Of a DNA stretch of 64,000 nt, positions 22,393 through 29,815 are shown piece after piece. The notes beneath the pieces are model-generated. The model did no database searches, was not told the DNA's origin, and saw only the letters and a list, made by a program, of their open reading frames with translations. The translations under genes and the position numbers were made by a program. Origin of the DNA: Bacteroidota bacterium (lineage in GTDB: Bacteria; Bacteroidota; Ignavibacteria; Kryptoniales; JAKASW01); the NCBI GenBank assembly GCA_023480735.1, contig JAMCXB010000062.1, forward strand, positions 1-64,000, written 5' to 3'. Position 1 is the stretch's first letter, and each line of letters begins with the position of its first letter.

Positions 22393-23756
22393 ATCTACTC
22401 GTGAGATGTCTGCGATTCGAAAGATCAAATGCGAAATGCAGGATGCAGGAAGCAAGAGAGGAACGACCAATAAATGGTCTCGTCCGTCACGCCGCATTTC
22501 CACTCTGTTCTCTCTTTTTCCTCTTCTCCGGTTTCTCTGCTTTTTCCCAGGTCTACGCTCAGGATCAAACTGTTCACCTGATTCATGCCGATAGCCTTAT
22601 CGGTTATACGATAGGCGCAGACTCTTACCGCGAGCTCATTGGGCATGTGACAATGCGGCATAAGAATACGGTCCTCAAGTGCGACAGCGCGCTGCAGAAC
22701 CTGACGCTGGATATTGTAAACCTCTACGGCAACGTCGAAGTCAGGGATGATACGCTGACTCTCCTCACAAAACAGGCCCAATATTCGGGCAAGACAAGCA
22801 CGGTTACGAGCAACACGGCCGTTTACCTGAATGACCGGAGGCGCACGCTCACAGCCGACAGCGGCAGCTACGACTCTCAGACTAAGATGGCACACTTCTA
22901 CGGGAACGTATTCGTACGGGACTCGGTATCGCAGCTGAGGGCACAGCGGCTTATCTATTATCGAGACGAGGGGAAGACGATAGCCGACGCGCAGGTACGG
23001 ATCAAGAGCCTCCAGAATAATGTGACGGTATACGGCTCCCACTTCGAGAATTATGAGAAGAAAGATTACAGCCTGATGTCCGGTAGGCCGCTCCTCGTTC
23101 AGATCGACACGAGTTCCGACGGCAAGATTGACACATTAATGATAACTTCGCGGACCATGCAGGCCTTCCGCGACACTTCGAACCAGCGATTCGTCGCGGA
23201 AGACAGCGTGCTGATAATCCGGGGCAGTCTTTCCGCGCGGTGCGGACTTGGGACTTATTTCTCGAAAGACAGCGTAGTGGTGCTTCAGAAACAGCCTGTT
23301 GTGTGGTACGAAGATAATCAACTTACAGGCGACAGCATTGCTGTGTATATTGTCAACAAGCGGGTATCGCGCGTTAACGTCGTCGGCGCAGCCTTCGCGG
23401 TTTCGCAGAGTGACTCGATCTATGCGAACCGGTTTAACCAGCTCAAAGGGAGAAGGCTTTCCATGTTTCTCAAAGACAGGAAGGTAGACCGCATAATCGT
23501 TGAAAGTAACGCCACGAGTTTGTATTATCTCTACGACAAGAATAAACCTAATGGAATCAACAGAGTGAGCGGCGATCGCGTCGTTATGTATTTCACAGAC
23601 GGAAAAATAGACAGGATAGCGGTTATAAGCGGGGTCGAAGGGGACTACTATCCTGAGAAGATGATTGCCGACAACACAGGAACGTATAACCTCGCAGGCT
23701 TCACCTATATCAAGAACAGGCCCGACAGGGGAGACTTTCCCACGAGTTGGAAGTGA
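22389..23756 (+). CDS. lptA: LptA/OstA-like LPS transport protein
   Basis: The 455-residue protein has a long N-terminal stretch before a hydrophobic signal (about residues 36-58, ending SQVYAQD), then many beta-jellyroll repeats of the OstA type (NLYGNVEVRDDTLTLLTKQA; TADSGSYDSQTKMAHFYGNV; VEGDYYPEK). LptA forms the periplasmic bridge for LPS. This protein is far longer than the ~185-residue E. coli LptA; long OstA-like versions occur in Bacteroidota. ATG 22443 may be a better start than 22389, because the first 18 residues look non-coding. It is followed by lptB. Confidence 0.82.
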   Translation: MNLLVRCLRFERSNAKCRMQEAREERPINGLVRHAAFPLCSLFFLFSGFSAFSQVYAQDQTVHLIHADSLIGYTIGADSYRELIGHVTMRHKNTVLKCDSALQNLTLDIVNLYGNVEVRDDTLTLLTKQAQYSGKTSTVTSNTAVYLNDRRRTLTADSGSYDSQTKMAHFYGNVFVRDSVSQLRAQRLIYYRDEGKTIADAQVRIKSLQNNVTVYGSHFENYEKKDYSLMSGRPLLVQIDTSSDGKIDTLMITSRTMQAFRDTSNQRFVAEDSVLIIRGSLSARCGLGTYFSKDSVVVLQKQPVVWYEDNQLTGDSIAVYIVNKRVSRVNVVGAAFAVSQSDSIYANRFNQLKGRRLSMFLKDRKVDRIIVESNATSLYYLYDKNKPNGINRVSGDRVVMYFTDGKIDRIAVISGVEGDYYPEKMIADNTGTYNLAGFTYIKNRPDRGDFPTSWK

Positions 23757-24541
23757 GCGATAATCTGGTAGAACAGCAGGAAATCACGAAGACTTCCGAG
23801 GAGACTATGCGGAGCGTACTCTACTCAAGCGAGCTACAGAAGCGCTATAAGAAGAAGTACGTTGTCAACGGAGTTTCGGTCGAGGTCAAGCAGGGAGAGG
23901 TTGTCGGACTATTGGGACCCAACGGAGCGGGGAAGACGACCACTTTTTATATGATGGTCGGGATGATCAAGCCCAACTCCGGGCGTGTGTTCATCGACAA
24001 CACGGAGATAACCACACTTGCGATGTACAGGAGGGCACGCCTCGGCATCGGCTACCTTCCGCAGGAAGCCTCCATCTTCAGAAAAATGACCGTCGAAGAC
24101 AACATCCTGGCGGTGCTCGAATACAGGAAGATGGATCACGCCGACAGGAAAAAGAGATGCGCCAATCTCATGAGTGAACTTGGGATAACTCACATACGCA
24201 AGACGCACGGCTACGCGCTGAGCGGCGGAGAACGGAGGAGGACAGAGATTGCACGAGCGCTCGCTACCGAGCCGAAGTTTATGCTGCTTGATGAACCGTT
24301 CGCCGGAATAGATCCACTTGCCGTCGAAGACATAATGAAGATTGTGGTCAGTCTAAAGCAGAAGGGAATCGGGGTACTTATCACCGACCACAACGTGCAT
24401 GAAACGCTTTCAATCGTTGATCGGGCTTATCTGCTGTTCGAAGGGAAGATCCTGAAGTCGGGGAGCTCAGAGTTCCTTGCCAATGATCCCGAGGCGCGGA
24501 AATTGTACCTGGGTGAAAACTTTAGACTGGATAGGTACTGA
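23747..24541 (+). CDS. lptB: LPS export ABC transporter ATPase LptB
   Basis: LptB powers LPS extraction from the inner membrane. The ~264-residue ATPase shows Walker A GPNGAGKTT (about residues 57-65), a Q-loop GYLPQEASIF, the signature LSGGERRRTEIARAL, Walker B FMLLDEPFAGIDP and the switch histidine in ITDHNVHE. The TTG start at 23747 overlaps the previous gene by 10 bases; ATG 23807 (MRSVLYSSELQKRY) is an equally good start judged by family length. It ends the operon. Confidence 0.94.
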   Translation: MEVSDNLVEQQEITKTSEETMRSVLYSSELQKRYKKKYVVNGVSVEVKQGEVVGLLGPNGAGKTTTFYMMVGMIKPNSGRVFIDNTEITTLAMYRRARLGIGYLPQEASIFRKMTVEDNILAVLEYRKMDHADRKKRCANLMSELGITHIRKTHGYALSGGERRRTEIARALATEPKFMLLDEPFAGIDPLAVEDIMKIVVSLKQKGIGVLITDHNVHETLSIVDRAYLLFEGKILKSGSSEFLANDPEARKLYLGENFRLDRY

Positions 24542-24764
24542 GGAGAAGTTGGATTTTGTGGAACGAGATTCGGCGATCATTCAATCGTTTGAATCGTGCT
24601 TTTATCACGACGGAGTATTAGTTTTAACGGTCAGGGAATAACAGAAGCTCGCATTTCAGAAAAAGTTGCCGCAGCCTGACGATGCTTAATATAAAGGTTG
24701 ACTAGAAATGCTGATCAGACAACATATTATCGGTAGTTATTAAGAGAAGTTCAGCGTGTATGAA

Positions 24765-24799
24765 TAATTGCCACTCACTTCGGAAGTGAGCAGCAATTA
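24765..24799. repeat. Long hairpin (35 bases)
   Basis: TAATTGC (24765-24771) pairs with GCAATTA (24793-24799), and CTCACTT (24774-24780) with AAGTGAG (24784-24790), with a CA/CA internal loop and a three-base CGG loop. There is no clean downstream T run, so it is not a canonical terminator. It lies 224 bases after lptB and 20 bases before a likely promoter. It may end LPS operon transcripts or be a regulator site. Confidence 0.55.
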
Positions 24800-24818
24800 G
24801 CTTCAGAAATTTTCCTCC

Positions 24819-24848
24819 TTGCACAATTGAGCGCTATGTGTTTATATT
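24819..24848 (+). promoter_or_regulatory. Candidate sigma-70-type promoter for the aroF leader
   Basis: TTGCAC at 24819-24824 and TATATT at 24843-24848 are 18 bases apart. Transcription would begin near 24855, just before the AGAGAG at 24861-24866 and the aromatic-codon leader frame. The match is a visual one against the sigma-70 pattern; Bacteroidetes-type promoters may differ. Confidence 0.45.
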
Positions 24849-24854
24849 AACCAG

Positions 24855-24986
24855 TTGAAAAGAGAGACTAACATAAGCAGATTAAGAACCGCCTCGAGTG
24901 ATAATTCTGCTTCTCCTTCCGGCCCCCGGTCCCCTTGGGCCAATTGGTTTTACTCCTACTACTATTTTCCCCTCCGGGGGAAATGA
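24855..24986 (+). promoter_or_regulatory. Candidate attenuator leader rich in aromatic codons, upstream of aroF-tyrA
   Basis: One frame, ending at TGA 24984-24986, reads W-F-Y-S-Y-Y-Y-F at 24945-24968, seven aromatic codons in eight, with another Trp codon at 24936. The downstream genes make aromatic amino acids, so ribosome stalling on these codons would sense Phe/Tyr/Trp supply. Two exclusive pairings are possible: TTTCCCC with GGGGAAA (24966-24972/24977-24983), or CCCCCGG (24923-24929) with CCGGGGG (24974-24980), which would loop out the aromatic codons. GGCCC/GGGCC (24921-24925/24937-24941) is a third hairpin. The start is uncertain: TTG 24855, or a non-standard ATA at 24873 placed well after AGAGAG. 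No U-run terminator is visible. Confidence 0.6.
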
Positions 24987-25171
24987 CCTTATTGTATCTA
25001 TAGACATATTCTATTTGAAAACCGAAGGCCGAATGTCGCGGTCATATCTGATACGATAATTCCAATCCATTATAGCGTGAATCTTCCGAGTTGGAATTGA
25101 CATTAGAGTTGCTTAAGCGGTGTGGTGTTGCCGCCAACATTGATAAATAAAAGGTTATGAAAGGGAAATAA

Positions 25172-26191
25172 ATGGTAGTCGTATTCGAAGAAGAGGCGAG
25201 CGAAGACGAAATTGAGAATGTCATAAAAGTTCTCAACGAATTTGGCTTCGATGTACACAAATCAACGGGCGTTTCGCGAACCATACTGGGGGCAATCGGT
25301 GTCAAGCCGGATTTTGATCACAGGCAGATTCAGGTTCTCCCGGGCGTCGACGAGGTTTACCGAGTTACCGAACCGTATAAGCTGGCGAACAGGACCTTCA
25401 AACCCGAAGGAACGATTATCGATGTGAAGGGTGTGAAAATTGGTGGGAACGAAGTGATTGTGATGGCGGGGCCCTGTGCCGTTGAAAACGAGAAACAACT
25501 GTTCACGGTCGCCGAACACGTCGCCAAGAACGGTGCGAAGGTTCTGCGCGGGGGCGCGTTTAAACCACGGACTTCACCCTATTCGTTTCAGGGACTGGGC
25601 GAAGACGGCCTGAAGCTCTTGCGTAAGGCTGGAAATGAATTCGGTCTTGTGGTCGTAACAGAAGTGATGGACAAGAGCCAGATCGACCTCGTGGCGGAGT
25701 ATGCAGACATACTTCAGATCGGCGCCAGGAACATGCAGAACTTCACGCTCCTGAAGGATATCGGCAAAATATCCAAGCCTGTCATGCTTAAACGCGGACT
25801 AGCAGCTACCGTCGAAGAGTGGCTGATGGCGGCCGAGTATATCCTTGCTGGCGGCAACAGGGAAGTGATGCTCTGCGAGCGCGGCATCAGAACGTTCGAA
25901 AATTCCACCAGGAATACGTTGGACATAAACGCTATCCCTGTAGTTCATAAGAAGAGCCACTTGCCGGTTATTGTAGATCCGTCACATGCTACCGGAATTC
26001 GCGAGAAAGTTGTCCCCGTTGCCAGAGCCGCAGTCGCAGTTGGAGCGGACGGAATCATGGTTGAGGTGCACAACGATCCCGGTAAGGCATTGTCGGATGG
26101 TCCGCAGTCGCTGTTCCTGGACCAGTTCACTCTGATGATGAAGGAAGTAAGACTCATTGCAAAGGCAATAGGAAGAGAAATACCTGAATAG
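25172..26191 (+). CDS. aroF: 3-deoxy-7-phosphoheptulonate (DAHP) synthase
   Basis: This is the first enzyme of the shikimate pathway, joining PEP and erythrose 4-phosphate. The 339-residue protein is the type I-beta form with an N-terminal ferredoxin-like regulatory domain (about residues 1-70, as in Thermotoga) used for feedback by aromatic amino acids. The barrel has MAGPCAVENEKQ, RGGAFKPRTSPYSFQG, the LCERGIRTFE segment and PVIVDPSHATG. ATG 25172 follows AAAGGGAAATAA. tyrA follows 21 bases later. A leader with aromatic codons and hairpins precedes it. Confidence 0.95.
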   Translation: MVVVFEEEASEDEIENVIKVLNEFGFDVHKSTGVSRTILGAIGVKPDFDHRQIQVLPGVDEVYRVTEPYKLANRTFKPEGTIIDVKGVKIGGNEVIVMAGPCAVENEKQLFTVAEHVAKNGAKVLRGGAFKPRTSPYSFQGLGEDGLKLLRKAGNEFGLVVVTEVMDKSQIDLVAEYADILQIGARNMQNFTLLKDIGKISKPVMLKRGLAATVEEWLMAAEYILAGGNREVMLCERGIRTFENSTRNTLDINAIPVVHKKSHLPVIVDPSHATGIREKVVPVARAAVAVGADGIMVEVHNDPGKALSDGPQSLFLDQFTLMMKEVRLIAKAIGREIPE

Positions 26192-26212: not shown

Positions 26213-27343
26213 GTGCAGAGAGACAAAGGGAGTTTTGGCTCATCTAAGAAGATAGGCGTGATCGGCTGTGGCCTGATAGGGGGATCGATTGCACTGTCGC
26301 TCTCTAATGCCGGTCACGACGTTTTAGTCGTAGATAAGCCCGAGAACGAGAGACAGATTCTCAAACAGATTCCGTCCGTCACATTCAAGAGCAACCCGGT
26401 AAGTCTCTGCAGCGAGAGCCCGCAAGTGGTGTTTGTATGTGTTCCGTCTGACATGACGATAGGAGTTGTCGAAGAGATTGCGCCTATCGTCTCTCCCGGA
26501 ACGATAATCACGGATGTTGCCGGCGTCAAACTTCCCATCATGGCCGCTGCCCGCAAAGTTGTCCCGGAAAACGTCTTCTTCGTCGGCGGACATCCGATGG
26601 CGGGTTCAGAAAAATCCGGAGTTGAGGCAGCGCAGCCCTTCCTTTTCCAAAATGCGGTTTATGTGTTGAGTCCGCTGTCGGAATATTCTGGGCAGGCCGT
26701 TTCGCCCCTGGTGGAAATAGTCCAGCAGCTTGGGGCGAGGATCCTTTTCATGGATGCCGCTCAACATGACAAGATTGCCGCCGCAATAAGTCATTTGCCT
26801 CAGTTGCTTGCGGTGGAACTCGTGAATCTCGTAAATGAACTGTCTTCCGAAGATGAACACTATAACACGCTTGCAGCCGGCGGGTTCAGGGACATGACAA
26901 GGATAGCCTCCAGCGATTTCTCCGTCTGGAAGGACGTAATCGCCGCCAACAGGGAAAACATCAGCGGTGTCCTGAGCGCTCTTATCCGCAGGCTTTCAAA
27001 GCTGGACAACCTTGTGAGAGATACAAGACTGGATGACGTGGGGTGCGAATTTGAAGAGGCGCAGCTTGCACGTACGAAAATCAAGAAAAGCGGAAAAGGC
27101 TTCCTTCGCCCGCTTTATGACCTGTACGTGGTTGTCGAGGACAGGGTCGGCGTCCTCAAGGAGATAACTTCGACTCTTGCTGATTCCGGCATCAACATAA
27201 AAGACATTGAACTGCTGAAGGTGCGCGAAGGAGCGGGGGGCATGTTCAGATTATCTTTCGAGACAGGGGAGATACTGGAAAGTTCTGCGAAGATTCTTGA
27301 GAAGCAGGGGTTCCAGATACTGAGAAAAGAGTTCGAGGGATAA
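26213..27343 (+). CDS. tyrA: Prephenate dehydrogenase with C-terminal ACT domain
   Basis: TyrA oxidises prephenate to 4-hydroxyphenylpyruvate for tyrosine synthesis. The 376-residue protein has a Rossmann start GVIGCGLIGGSIALSL, the catalytic region GGHPMAGSEKSG (about residues 121-132), HLPQLLAVELV, and a C-terminal ACT domain (YVVVEDRVGVLKEITSTLAD) likely to bind tyrosine or phenylalanine. GTG 26213 is preceded by AGGGGCTAAG. It forms an operon with aroF, matching a shared aromatic control. Confidence 0.92.
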   Translation: MQRDKGSFGSSKKIGVIGCGLIGGSIALSLSNAGHDVLVVDKPENERQILKQIPSVTFKSNPVSLCSESPQVVFVCVPSDMTIGVVEEIAPIVSPGTIITDVAGVKLPIMAAARKVVPENVFFVGGHPMAGSEKSGVEAAQPFLFQNAVYVLSPLSEYSGQAVSPLVEIVQQLGARILFMDAAQHDKIAAAISHLPQLLAVELVNLVNELSSEDEHYNTLAAGGFRDMTRIASSDFSVWKDVIAANRENISGVLSALIRRLSKLDNLVRDTRLDDVGCEFEEAQLARTKIKKSGKGFLRPLYDLYVVVEDRVGVLKEITSTLADSGINIKDIELLKVREGAGGMFRLSFETGEILESSAKILEKQGFQILRKEFEG

Positions 27344-27478: not shown

Positions 27479-29815
27479 TCACTCATCCTCCTCTTCCTCG
27501 ATCTTCGACTCTGCCGTGCTGACATCTTCTGATTTCATCTTAACTCCATCCAGCGAAATCTTGAAAAGCATATCCTCGTCTGAGGAGAAAACCTTCCTGA
27601 AATCTTCGGGGCTGAAGAACTCCAGGAACCGTTGAGCATATTCGTTGAGTTTCCGCAAGTAGTAGTTCGAGTTGTATTCCAATTGGTTGGGACTGTCTTC
27701 GTCAAAGAGCCTTGCGCTCATGAAGGACCGGGGAGTAGGGTCATTTCCCGAAATGTAATACGAAACCCTGTCGCCGGGCCGCAGGTTTATGCCGGCGCTG
27801 ATTGCCGCTTCAAAGCTCGCGGTCCTGTTTCTTCTGTTTGCTCTGACTGACGACAGGTATTCATCGATTGATTCCTTTATCGATTCCGTGCGGACCATCT
27901 TAGCAAGCGGAATTTCCCGCCTGCCTATCTTCCGAACGTATTCGACGTACAAATCGTGGAGGCCTTGGACATTTTCGTGCAGCATGTATTCGATGGCAGT
28001 GTGAATGAACTCGCGTCCGAATTTTTCCATGCTTCTCGAAATCAGCGCCGAACCGCGAATCCTTACTTTGCCGTCATATCCAAGGAGTGCGTAGTTCTTC
28101 TTTTTATAGCTCAGCATCCTCCGGAACCGGCCGTCAAGCGACAAATTTATTCCTTGGGGCAGCGAGTGAGAAATCCCGGCTACGAACTTGTTCTCGGCTT
28201 CCTCGTCCGCGCATTCCGGCGGAGGCACGAAGTAGAGACCGTCCGTGTCCACTTCCAGCACTCTGCCTCCATCCGAAGAAATCTGGGCTATCATTTGCCG
28301 GAGTATCTTTTGTCCGGTTTCCGTGACCATATCTGCGGCGGAATAGTCGTTGAATATTCCGCGCGAATACCCGAGATATCCATAAAAGGAGTTTATGAGT
28401 ATCTTCAGGGAAGACTGCATCGCATCAAGTTTGAACTTCATGGCAGGATCCTCTTCTCCCCTCATTTGTTTCTTCGTGTCCAGGCGGAGTTTCGTCAGGT
28501 GCTTCAGGGTGCGCTGAAAAACGCCCAGGGCATCGCCCTCAGGAGATATCTTGTAGGTAATCATGATAGATGGATACAGCGATTCCACGTCGGCGTGAAC
28601 AATCGGCCCCACCACGCCGCGGACAAATACGTCGGTATAACCGCCGCTTGTCTGCCTCCCGGCCCGCGGACGAGGGATGGAATGCTTCTTGCGGAGGTAC
28701 TCCCTGACAAAAAGAGATTCTATCTTCACCGCCGAGCCCGTCCTGGGGATTTGTCCGTAATTGAAGGGAAGAACCTGTGAAAGGTAGAAACTCGTCTGCG
28801 ACAAATATTCGGACAGAAGCCTCGTCTCACGCACGTCGTCGAGTGCGTACTTTACCAACAAGTCGGGATTCTTCAGCCAGGTCTCCGATATCTTCGAGCC
28901 GTCGATATAGGTCCTGTCCTTCGAGGCGAACCCGAAGAATTTCGCCGCATTCTTCAGCCCGTAGCTCTCAAGCTCTCGTCTCGTCGAGTCATAGCTCTGA
29001 ACGAGGAGCCATGTGTCGATTATCTGTCTGCCGGGTATTTCAACGTTCGAATACTCTATCTCTCTTTCTGCGTACGAAAGGCGGGACGTGAAGACTCTCG
29101 GCTCCAGGTCGTCTCTTCCAATCCTAAATTTTACTCCGTTCATCTCGGACCGGCGCATTAGGTAAGGCAGATCGAAGTTGTAAATATTGTGTCCCTCTAT
29201 GACGTCGGGGTCTCTTTCTTTGATTATGTTCACCAGCTCGGACAACATTTCTGCTTCCGACTTTTCCCGACCGTCAATTACGTATTCCCACCCGGAACTG
29301 TCCGAAAGCGAAATCAGTATGACCCTGTCTTCCTTTCGCGAGGCATTGGAAAACCCGGATCTTGCGAATGTCTCTATGTCGAGCTGCATCCGTTCGAGCT
29401 CGGTAAATTCCATCTCCTTGAAGAGGGTCATTCCTGTCTGCATGAGGAATTGAAAAACGGGATCGAGCCTTACGTAAACCTCCTCCGTTTCCGAGAGGTC
29501 TCGTGTGGTATCCCCATGACCGGCACTCAGGTTGTCAGCAATTTTGCGGAGCGCGGCGCGTATGTCCGACCATCTGCGGAAGATGAAGAGGTACTGGTAG
29601 TAATTGCTGCCGGCCAGCTTGACTTCCCAAAATTTCTTATCGAAGCCCTTCAGCAGGGCGGCGTCTTTCAGGAATAAGAAAGGATAGAATTTGCGTTCCT
29701 GGGTTGTAGTCTTGCCGTCGATGCGCCTTACTATCTTGACGGTCGTCTCGCTCGCCTGGTAAACGGCGACGATTTTTGAATCGGTGCTATGGCCGAATAT
29801 TATCGCGTCGGTCAT
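27479..29815 (-). CDS. polB: Family B DNA polymerase with 3'-5' exonuclease
   Basis: This 778-residue enzyme is a DNA polymerase II/archaeal-like family B polymerase, usually serving repair or translesion synthesis in bacteria. Exonuclease motifs are LDIETFAR (Exo I), EGHNIYNFDLPYL (Exo II) and YALDDVRETR (Exo III). Polymerase motif A is ADVESLYPSIM, motif B KILINSFYGYLGYSRG and motif C VDTDGLYF. The C-terminus is acidic (EEEEDE). The gene converges with tyrA and lies 20 bases after udk on the minus strand. No LexA box is seen near the start. Length and motifs are complete. Confidence 0.93.
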   Translation of the reverse strand: MTDAIIFGHSTDSKIVAVYQASETTVKIVRRIDGKTTTQERKFYPFLFLKDAALLKGFDKKFWEVKLAGSNYYQYLFIFRRWSDIRAALRKIADNLSAGHGDTTRDLSETEEVYVRLDPVFQFLMQTGMTLFKEMEFTELERMQLDIETFARSGFSNASRKEDRVILISLSDSSGWEYVIDGREKSEAEMLSELVNIIKERDPDVIEGHNIYNFDLPYLMRRSEMNGVKFRIGRDDLEPRVFTSRLSYAEREIEYSNVEIPGRQIIDTWLLVQSYDSTRRELESYGLKNAAKFFGFASKDRTYIDGSKISETWLKNPDLLVKYALDDVRETRLLSEYLSQTSFYLSQVLPFNYGQIPRTGSAVKIESLFVREYLRKKHSIPRPRAGRQTSGGYTDVFVRGVVGPIVHADVESLYPSIMITYKISPEGDALGVFQRTLKHLTKLRLDTKKQMRGEEDPAMKFKLDAMQSSLKILINSFYGYLGYSRGIFNDYSAADMVTETGQKILRQMIAQISSDGGRVLEVDTDGLYFVPPPECADEEAENKFVAGISHSLPQGINLSLDGRFRRMLSYKKKNYALLGYDGKVRIRGSALISRSMEKFGREFIHTAIEYMLHENVQGLHDLYVEYVRKIGRREIPLAKMVRTESIKESIDEYLSSVRANRRNRTASFEAAISAGINLRPGDRVSYYISGNDPTPRSFMSARLFDEDSPNQLEYNSNYYLRKLNEYAQRFLEFFSPEDFRKVFSSDEDMLFKISLDGVKMKSEDVSTAESKIEEEEDE

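Follow-up and report, generated by a model that had tools for sequence, protein, structure and literature searches.

The window, a 64-kb stretch of a 2.8-Mb draft genome (contig 25), carries aroF, coding for a DAHP synthase with a ferredoxin-like regulatory domain, and tyrA, coding for a prephenate dehydrogenase with an ACT domain, separated from the preceding lptB gene by a gap of 630 nt (24542-25171) in which a candidate leader is located (Table 1). A preliminary description of this DNA had placed these two enzymes directly downstream of the leader, which is borne out by their domain matches, and tyrA is the next gene after aroF in 18/18 genomes of the two families of the order that were compared. 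A gene for a family B DNA polymerase with an exonuclease domain (27479-29815, minus strand) lies tail to tail with tyrA. The comparison includes the family of the source genome (the own family, 13 genomes of a single genus), in which the region upstream of aroF is readable in 11 genomes, one of the other two being without this copy and one being cut by a contig end, and seven genomes of the order's other family (the sister family); genomes inside each family are kin, so the counts of 11, 7 and 18 are not independent events.

Table 1. Features of the aroF-tyrA locus and its leader (window coordinates).
Feature	Position	Strand	Description
lptB	23747-24541		TIGR04406
sigma70-type promoter	24819-24848	+	TTGCAC 24819-24824, 18-nt spacer, TATATT 24843-24848
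leader ORF	24855-24986	+	43 codons, TTG start, TGA stop, (M)KRETNISRLRTASSDNSASPSGPRSPWANWFYSYYYFPLRGK; frame and start kept in 11/11 own-family genomes
aromatic run	24936-24968	+	Trp 24936-24938 (TGG), then W-F-Y-S-Y-Y-Y-F 24945-24968
invariant Tyr-Phe codon pair	24963-24968	+	abuts the hairpin, proposed stall site; TAY TTY in 18/18 genomes, two families
terminal hairpin	24963-24985 (core 24966-24983)	+	UAUUUUCCCC-UCC-GGGGGAAAUG over last codons and stop; predicted in 18/18 leaders
G-poor stretch past the stop	24987-25036	+	conserved in part, without a U-run; may be related to Rho
aroF	25172-26191	+	DAHP_synth_1 and DAHP_snth_FXD (PF00793, PF18152); NF006421
tyrA	26213-27343	+	PDH_N, PDH_C, ACT (PF02153, PF20463, PF01842)

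The promoter proposed earlier just upstream of the leader is supported by the relatives, in which TTGCAC-18-TATATT is kept: the identical -35/-10 pair is found at a constant distance from the leader start in 11/11 own-family genomes, and the sister family has a similar promoter (TTGCAA...TATATT). The leader ORF ranges from 33 to 54 codons across the 11 own-family genomes and begins with ATG, GTG or TTG, 6-7 nt past the -10 box, in all of them. Because the relatives place one of these three codons at exactly that spot, TTG 24855 is taken as the start in the window; this was one of the two starts suggested beforehand, and the other, ATA 24873, was dropped, being unneeded when the relatives' starts align with 24855. 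The gap between the -10 box and the start leaves no room for a Shine-Dalgarno site, and the own-family message is therefore predicted to be leaderless and probably is, in contrast to that of the sister family, where the leader starts 26-38 nt past the -10 box. Conservation of the ORF suggests that it is translated, and searches with the Pfam and NCBIfam profiles returned no match for its peptide.

The frame ending at TGA 24984-24986 was originally singled out for W-F-Y-S-Y-Y-Y-F and a further Trp codon, an observation that was confirmed: 24945-24968 is the most aromatic-dense eight-codon stretch of the 64-kb window in all six frames, 7/8 aromatic codons being reached nowhere else, and dinucleotide shuffling of the intergenic region 24542-25171 never attained this value in 2000 rounds. 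Across the own-family leaders, aromatic codons make up half of the final 13 codons versus 6% of the remainder, and the leader end reads Y-(F/Y)-Y-F-P-x-(R/W)-G-x-stop in 11/11 genomes. The aromatic codons show silent drift (TAT/TAC, TTT/TTC), with one position swapping Tyr and Phe and so retaining the aromatic class, while the Pro codon CCC in the leader end is invariant; this combination of silent drift and a fixed CCC indicates that the leader is constrained both as a peptide and as RNA. At least one Trp codon is present in every leader of both families, although that of the own family lies within G-rich sequence and may be kept for RNA structure. The Tyr/Phe swap, the invariant Tyr-Phe pair and the presence of Trp in every leader make joint sensing of several aromatic residues plausible.

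In the own family, a C/G hairpin spans the final leader codons with the stop codon at its foot (11/11). The last 9-11 codons were folded against a background of 500 synonymous versions drawn according to genome codon use. The resulting p values of 0.004-0.078 for the own family (0.066 in the window, mostly below 0.03 in the relatives) and of 0-0.038 for the sister family indicate that the hairpins are mostly stronger than the peptide demands and are selected as RNA. The sister-family hairpin, of 10 bp (GCCCAGUGGU...ACCACUGGGC), covers the final codons, and the stop follows immediately after the helix. All cells of this helix are paired (100%), and one pair is changed on both sides, from G-C to A-U in L139, via two silent codon changes, a single event among seven sequences that is equalled by 73/500 shuffles. 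In L144, also of the sister family, the second Trp codon, which lies inside the hairpin loop, has become an in-frame TGA that shortens the ORF, and the stem is retained.

With respect to its distribution, the aromatic leader occurs once per genome in the 11 own-family genomes and, among the operons checked, only upstream of aroF-tyrA. A covariance model built on the own-family leader core and run over 294 genomes of the class gave one match per genome in these 11 members; every other match in the class had E >= 0.01, and those at E 0.01-0.5 were treated as chance. The sister family shares 74-77% identity in aroF, yet its leader sequence is unrelated to that of the own family (7/7 genomes) and ends in YFAQWW-R-(N/H)-HWA-stop in 6/7, mostly as YFAQWWRNHWA-stop. 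Despite these unrelated sequences the same plan is found in 18/18 genomes: a promoter and a short ORF with aromatic codons, its Tyr-Phe pair directly before a GC hairpin that has the stop codon at its foot, and then aroF-tyrA. Elsewhere in the class, 12 aroF orthologues of other families (one of them with no more than 50 nt of upstream sequence) show no aromatic leader, and neither do seven of eight wider relatives, the exception being L039, a KSB1 MAG, and most outgroup copies of aroF closely follow lptB. Alignment of the aroF upstream regions thus recovered the aromatic run and the hairpin in two families (18/18), with the compensatory change in L139, while other families of Ignavibacteria are without the leader, and the simplest reading is apparently that the ancestor of the order gained it. 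Within the genomes, none was found before the second DAHP synthase gene, hisG or, in the own family only, trpE; the second DAHP synthase gene of the own genus directly follows another gene, and own-family trpE either overlaps the gene upstream of it or lies close behind it. Rfam 15 covariance models at gathering score matched only tmRNA and tRNA in the window and nothing in L002, L138, L197 and L204.

Viewed together, these comparisons of sequence make it very likely that aroF-tyrA is preceded by a ribosome-sensing leader that responds to the supply of Tyr and Phe. The fuller reading, in which charged Tyr- and Phe-tRNA would act as the signal for aroF-tyrA through occlusion of the hairpin, is given a probability of about 0.7, and Trp is perhaps also sensed. 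With Tyr or Phe in short supply, the ribosome would stall on the Tyr-Phe pair and cover the 5' arm of the hairpin, and with the hairpin blocked RNA polymerase would continue into aroF-tyrA. When both are plentiful, the ribosome would finish the leader and leave at the stop codon by the hairpin foot, so that the hairpin could form, causing the polymerase to pause and transcription to end early. A ribosome whose A site waits for the Tyr or Phe of the pair should, judging from its footprint, cover approximately 6-9 nt of the 5' arm, which alone would suffice to prevent the hairpin. Counting against occlusion, a stall at the first aromatic codons instead of Tyr-Phe would leave the hairpin free, and a closely trailing ribosome would cover it even without a stall, so that timing would matter. 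The original proposal of an attenuator-type aromatic leader holds for the leader and its hairpin, kept in 18/18 genomes without a U-run, and not for its competing hairpins or the ATA start.

The manner in which such a leader would be read out depends on what surrounds the hairpin. It had been suggested that 24966-24983 and the pairing 24923-24929:24974-24980 form exclusive hairpins; the former is real and conserved, while the latter, although drawable, does not clearly exceed chance (window z -1.6, p 0.06; own-family mean z -0.74) and was rejected as a mutually exclusive partner. A general search for competitor helices, pairing the 5' arm with upstream sequence and the 3' arm with upstream or downstream sequence, gave no general excess over dinucleotide shuffles in either family, and a UAUUUUCCC repeat that lies downstream in several relatives, considered as a partner of the 3' arm, likewise did not exceed chance. 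The same test applied to ilvB leaders of the own genus as a positive control gave z scores of -2.6 to -6.6, indicating that it is able to detect such helices. No U-run follows the hairpin in either family (T-scores directly past the stem of 0.4-1.9), in agreement with the preliminary description, and U-run terminators are present elsewhere in these genomes, the convergent gaps behind this comparison being few (13 and 2). Terminator prediction marks 24963-24985 as a terminator-like site whose tail, ACCTTATTGT, is just loosely U-rich.

These results bear directly on a classical transcription attenuator, as in pheL-pheA or trpL, in which the hairpin and a weak U tail would together form an ordinary intrinsic terminator and an antiterminator would counteract it. 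The leader peptide and a suitably placed hairpin, the terminator-like call with its tail and the drawable upstream pairing would all fit this explanation, but it is made improbable by an antiterminator that does not rise above chance in either family, even though ilvB leaders yield one by the same test, and by a U-run that occurs in neither.

For the occlusion reading, an early end of transcription is rather likely to be the output. With neither a U-run nor an antiterminator, and with a G-poor tail in both families and a Rho gene present, an ending helped by Rho is favoured over others, although it is put forward tentatively; Rho would act on the untranslated leader RNA, most likely aiding termination. 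The 50 nt past the hairpin contain 1-4 G in the sister family versus a mean of 8.0, and 3-8 versus 11.9 in the own family; an excess of C over G after the leader stop is clear in the sister family alone, the own-family tail being G-poor but hardly C-rich. The gene for Rho (PF07497) is found in 19/20 genomes of the order, including the source genome. Weak intrinsic termination is possible given the loosely U-rich tail of the own family, and an early end brought about by the hairpin with such a weak tail is considered unlikely. Beside the normal rho, a second divergent ORF (~370-415 aa) with a weak match to the Rho RNA-binding domain (E 1e-10 to 7e-4) was seen in the source genome (G000:C38:21237-21446) and in 11 genomes of the same family, and not in the sister family.

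On the other hand, the leader RNA might act on translation by masking the aroF ribosome-binding site, which a stalled ribosome would then release. In L008-L010 the leader segment CACTCCTTCCC is indeed predicted to pair with this site with a probability near 1, and a few relatives pair better than shuffles, but the site is sequestered neither in the window (z +1.3) nor in most other genomes, and the stretch preceding it in the sister family is A/C/U-rich with hardly any G, so that a translational attenuator appears quite improbable. By eye, a small hairpin was noticed just before the aroF ribosome-binding site in several relatives (the region of 25040-25170 in the window), with stems that differ (CCGGAG/CTCCGG, CCGAAG/CTTCGG, TTAGA/TCTAA). 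The view that there is no attenuator, and that the ORF either encodes a small functional peptide or arose by chance across a conserved promoter region, could draw on the variable N-terminal half of the peptide and is hardly credible, given that two unrelated sequences retain the start, the frame, the Tyr-Phe pair and the position of the hairpin in 18/18 genomes, only before an aromatic operon, and that the hairpin is under selection at the RNA level.

The pheL-pheA and trpL attenuators of E. coli have their antiterminator and U-run terminator well past the leader stop. The aroF-tyrA leader resembles these systems in having a peptide rich in end-product codons and a hairpin before a biosynthetic operon, and differs in its single hairpin that overlaps the last codons and the stop, with neither antiterminator nor U-run. 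A textbook form is found in L039, where a Tyr-rich leader (KYYYRYYYYFSYIDSG) precedes the aroF-tyrA operon, as in the leader described here, but carries a GATAGTGGG repeat and a T9 terminator. Candidate leader peptides without an obvious terminator have been described for mycobacterial cys operons, with Rho being proposed (PMC1262725); these share regulatory codons near the leader stop, but concern cysteine in Actinobacteria and have no conserved hairpin, whereas that of aroF-tyrA is conserved and abuts the regulatory codons. Leaderless leader peptides are represented by S. meliloti trpL (PMC7298713) and, as cited in PMC9031893, by mycobacterial polycysteine ORFs (Canestrari et al. 2020), whose regulatory ORF similarly begins right at the 5' end of the message or close to it, although they respond to other amino acids in other phyla and the aroF-tyrA leader is leaderless by prediction and in the own family only. 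Leader-peptide attenuation of amino-acid operons has also been inferred for Flavobacterium psychrophilum, a member of the same broad phylum (PMC9723704). A literature search of partial coverage returned no case for this lineage, nor a mixed Tyr/Phe leader before aroF-tyrA.

If the occlusion reading is true, an uncultured lineage would control aromatic synthesis by ribosome-controlled attenuation with a switch simpler than the textbook one. It is somewhat doubtful, though conceivable, that the order possesses a separate attenuator class, with a lone hairpin at the ORF end, without U-run or antiterminator, switched only by a Tyr-Phe-stalled ribosome covering the hairpin and read out by Rho or a pause. 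Two families with the same plan and nearly all sequence different provide a natural experiment on what is essential in an attenuator, namely the codons, the hairpin and their exact contact.

Finally, a different conserved leader was observed upstream of ilvB in 11 genomes of the own family (L197-L207; contig 28 of the source genome, outside the window) and is absent from the sister family. It ends in (I/V)LILLLLSEGNILLGIIS and the stop codon, or close to this, and has no evident U-run and no Rfam match. A hairpin A:B (GGGGAATATCC...GGTTATTCCCC) surrounds its stop, and a downstream segment C (GGGAATAACC) pairs with B at the z scores given above for the control, the A:B and B:C helices being mutually exclusive.
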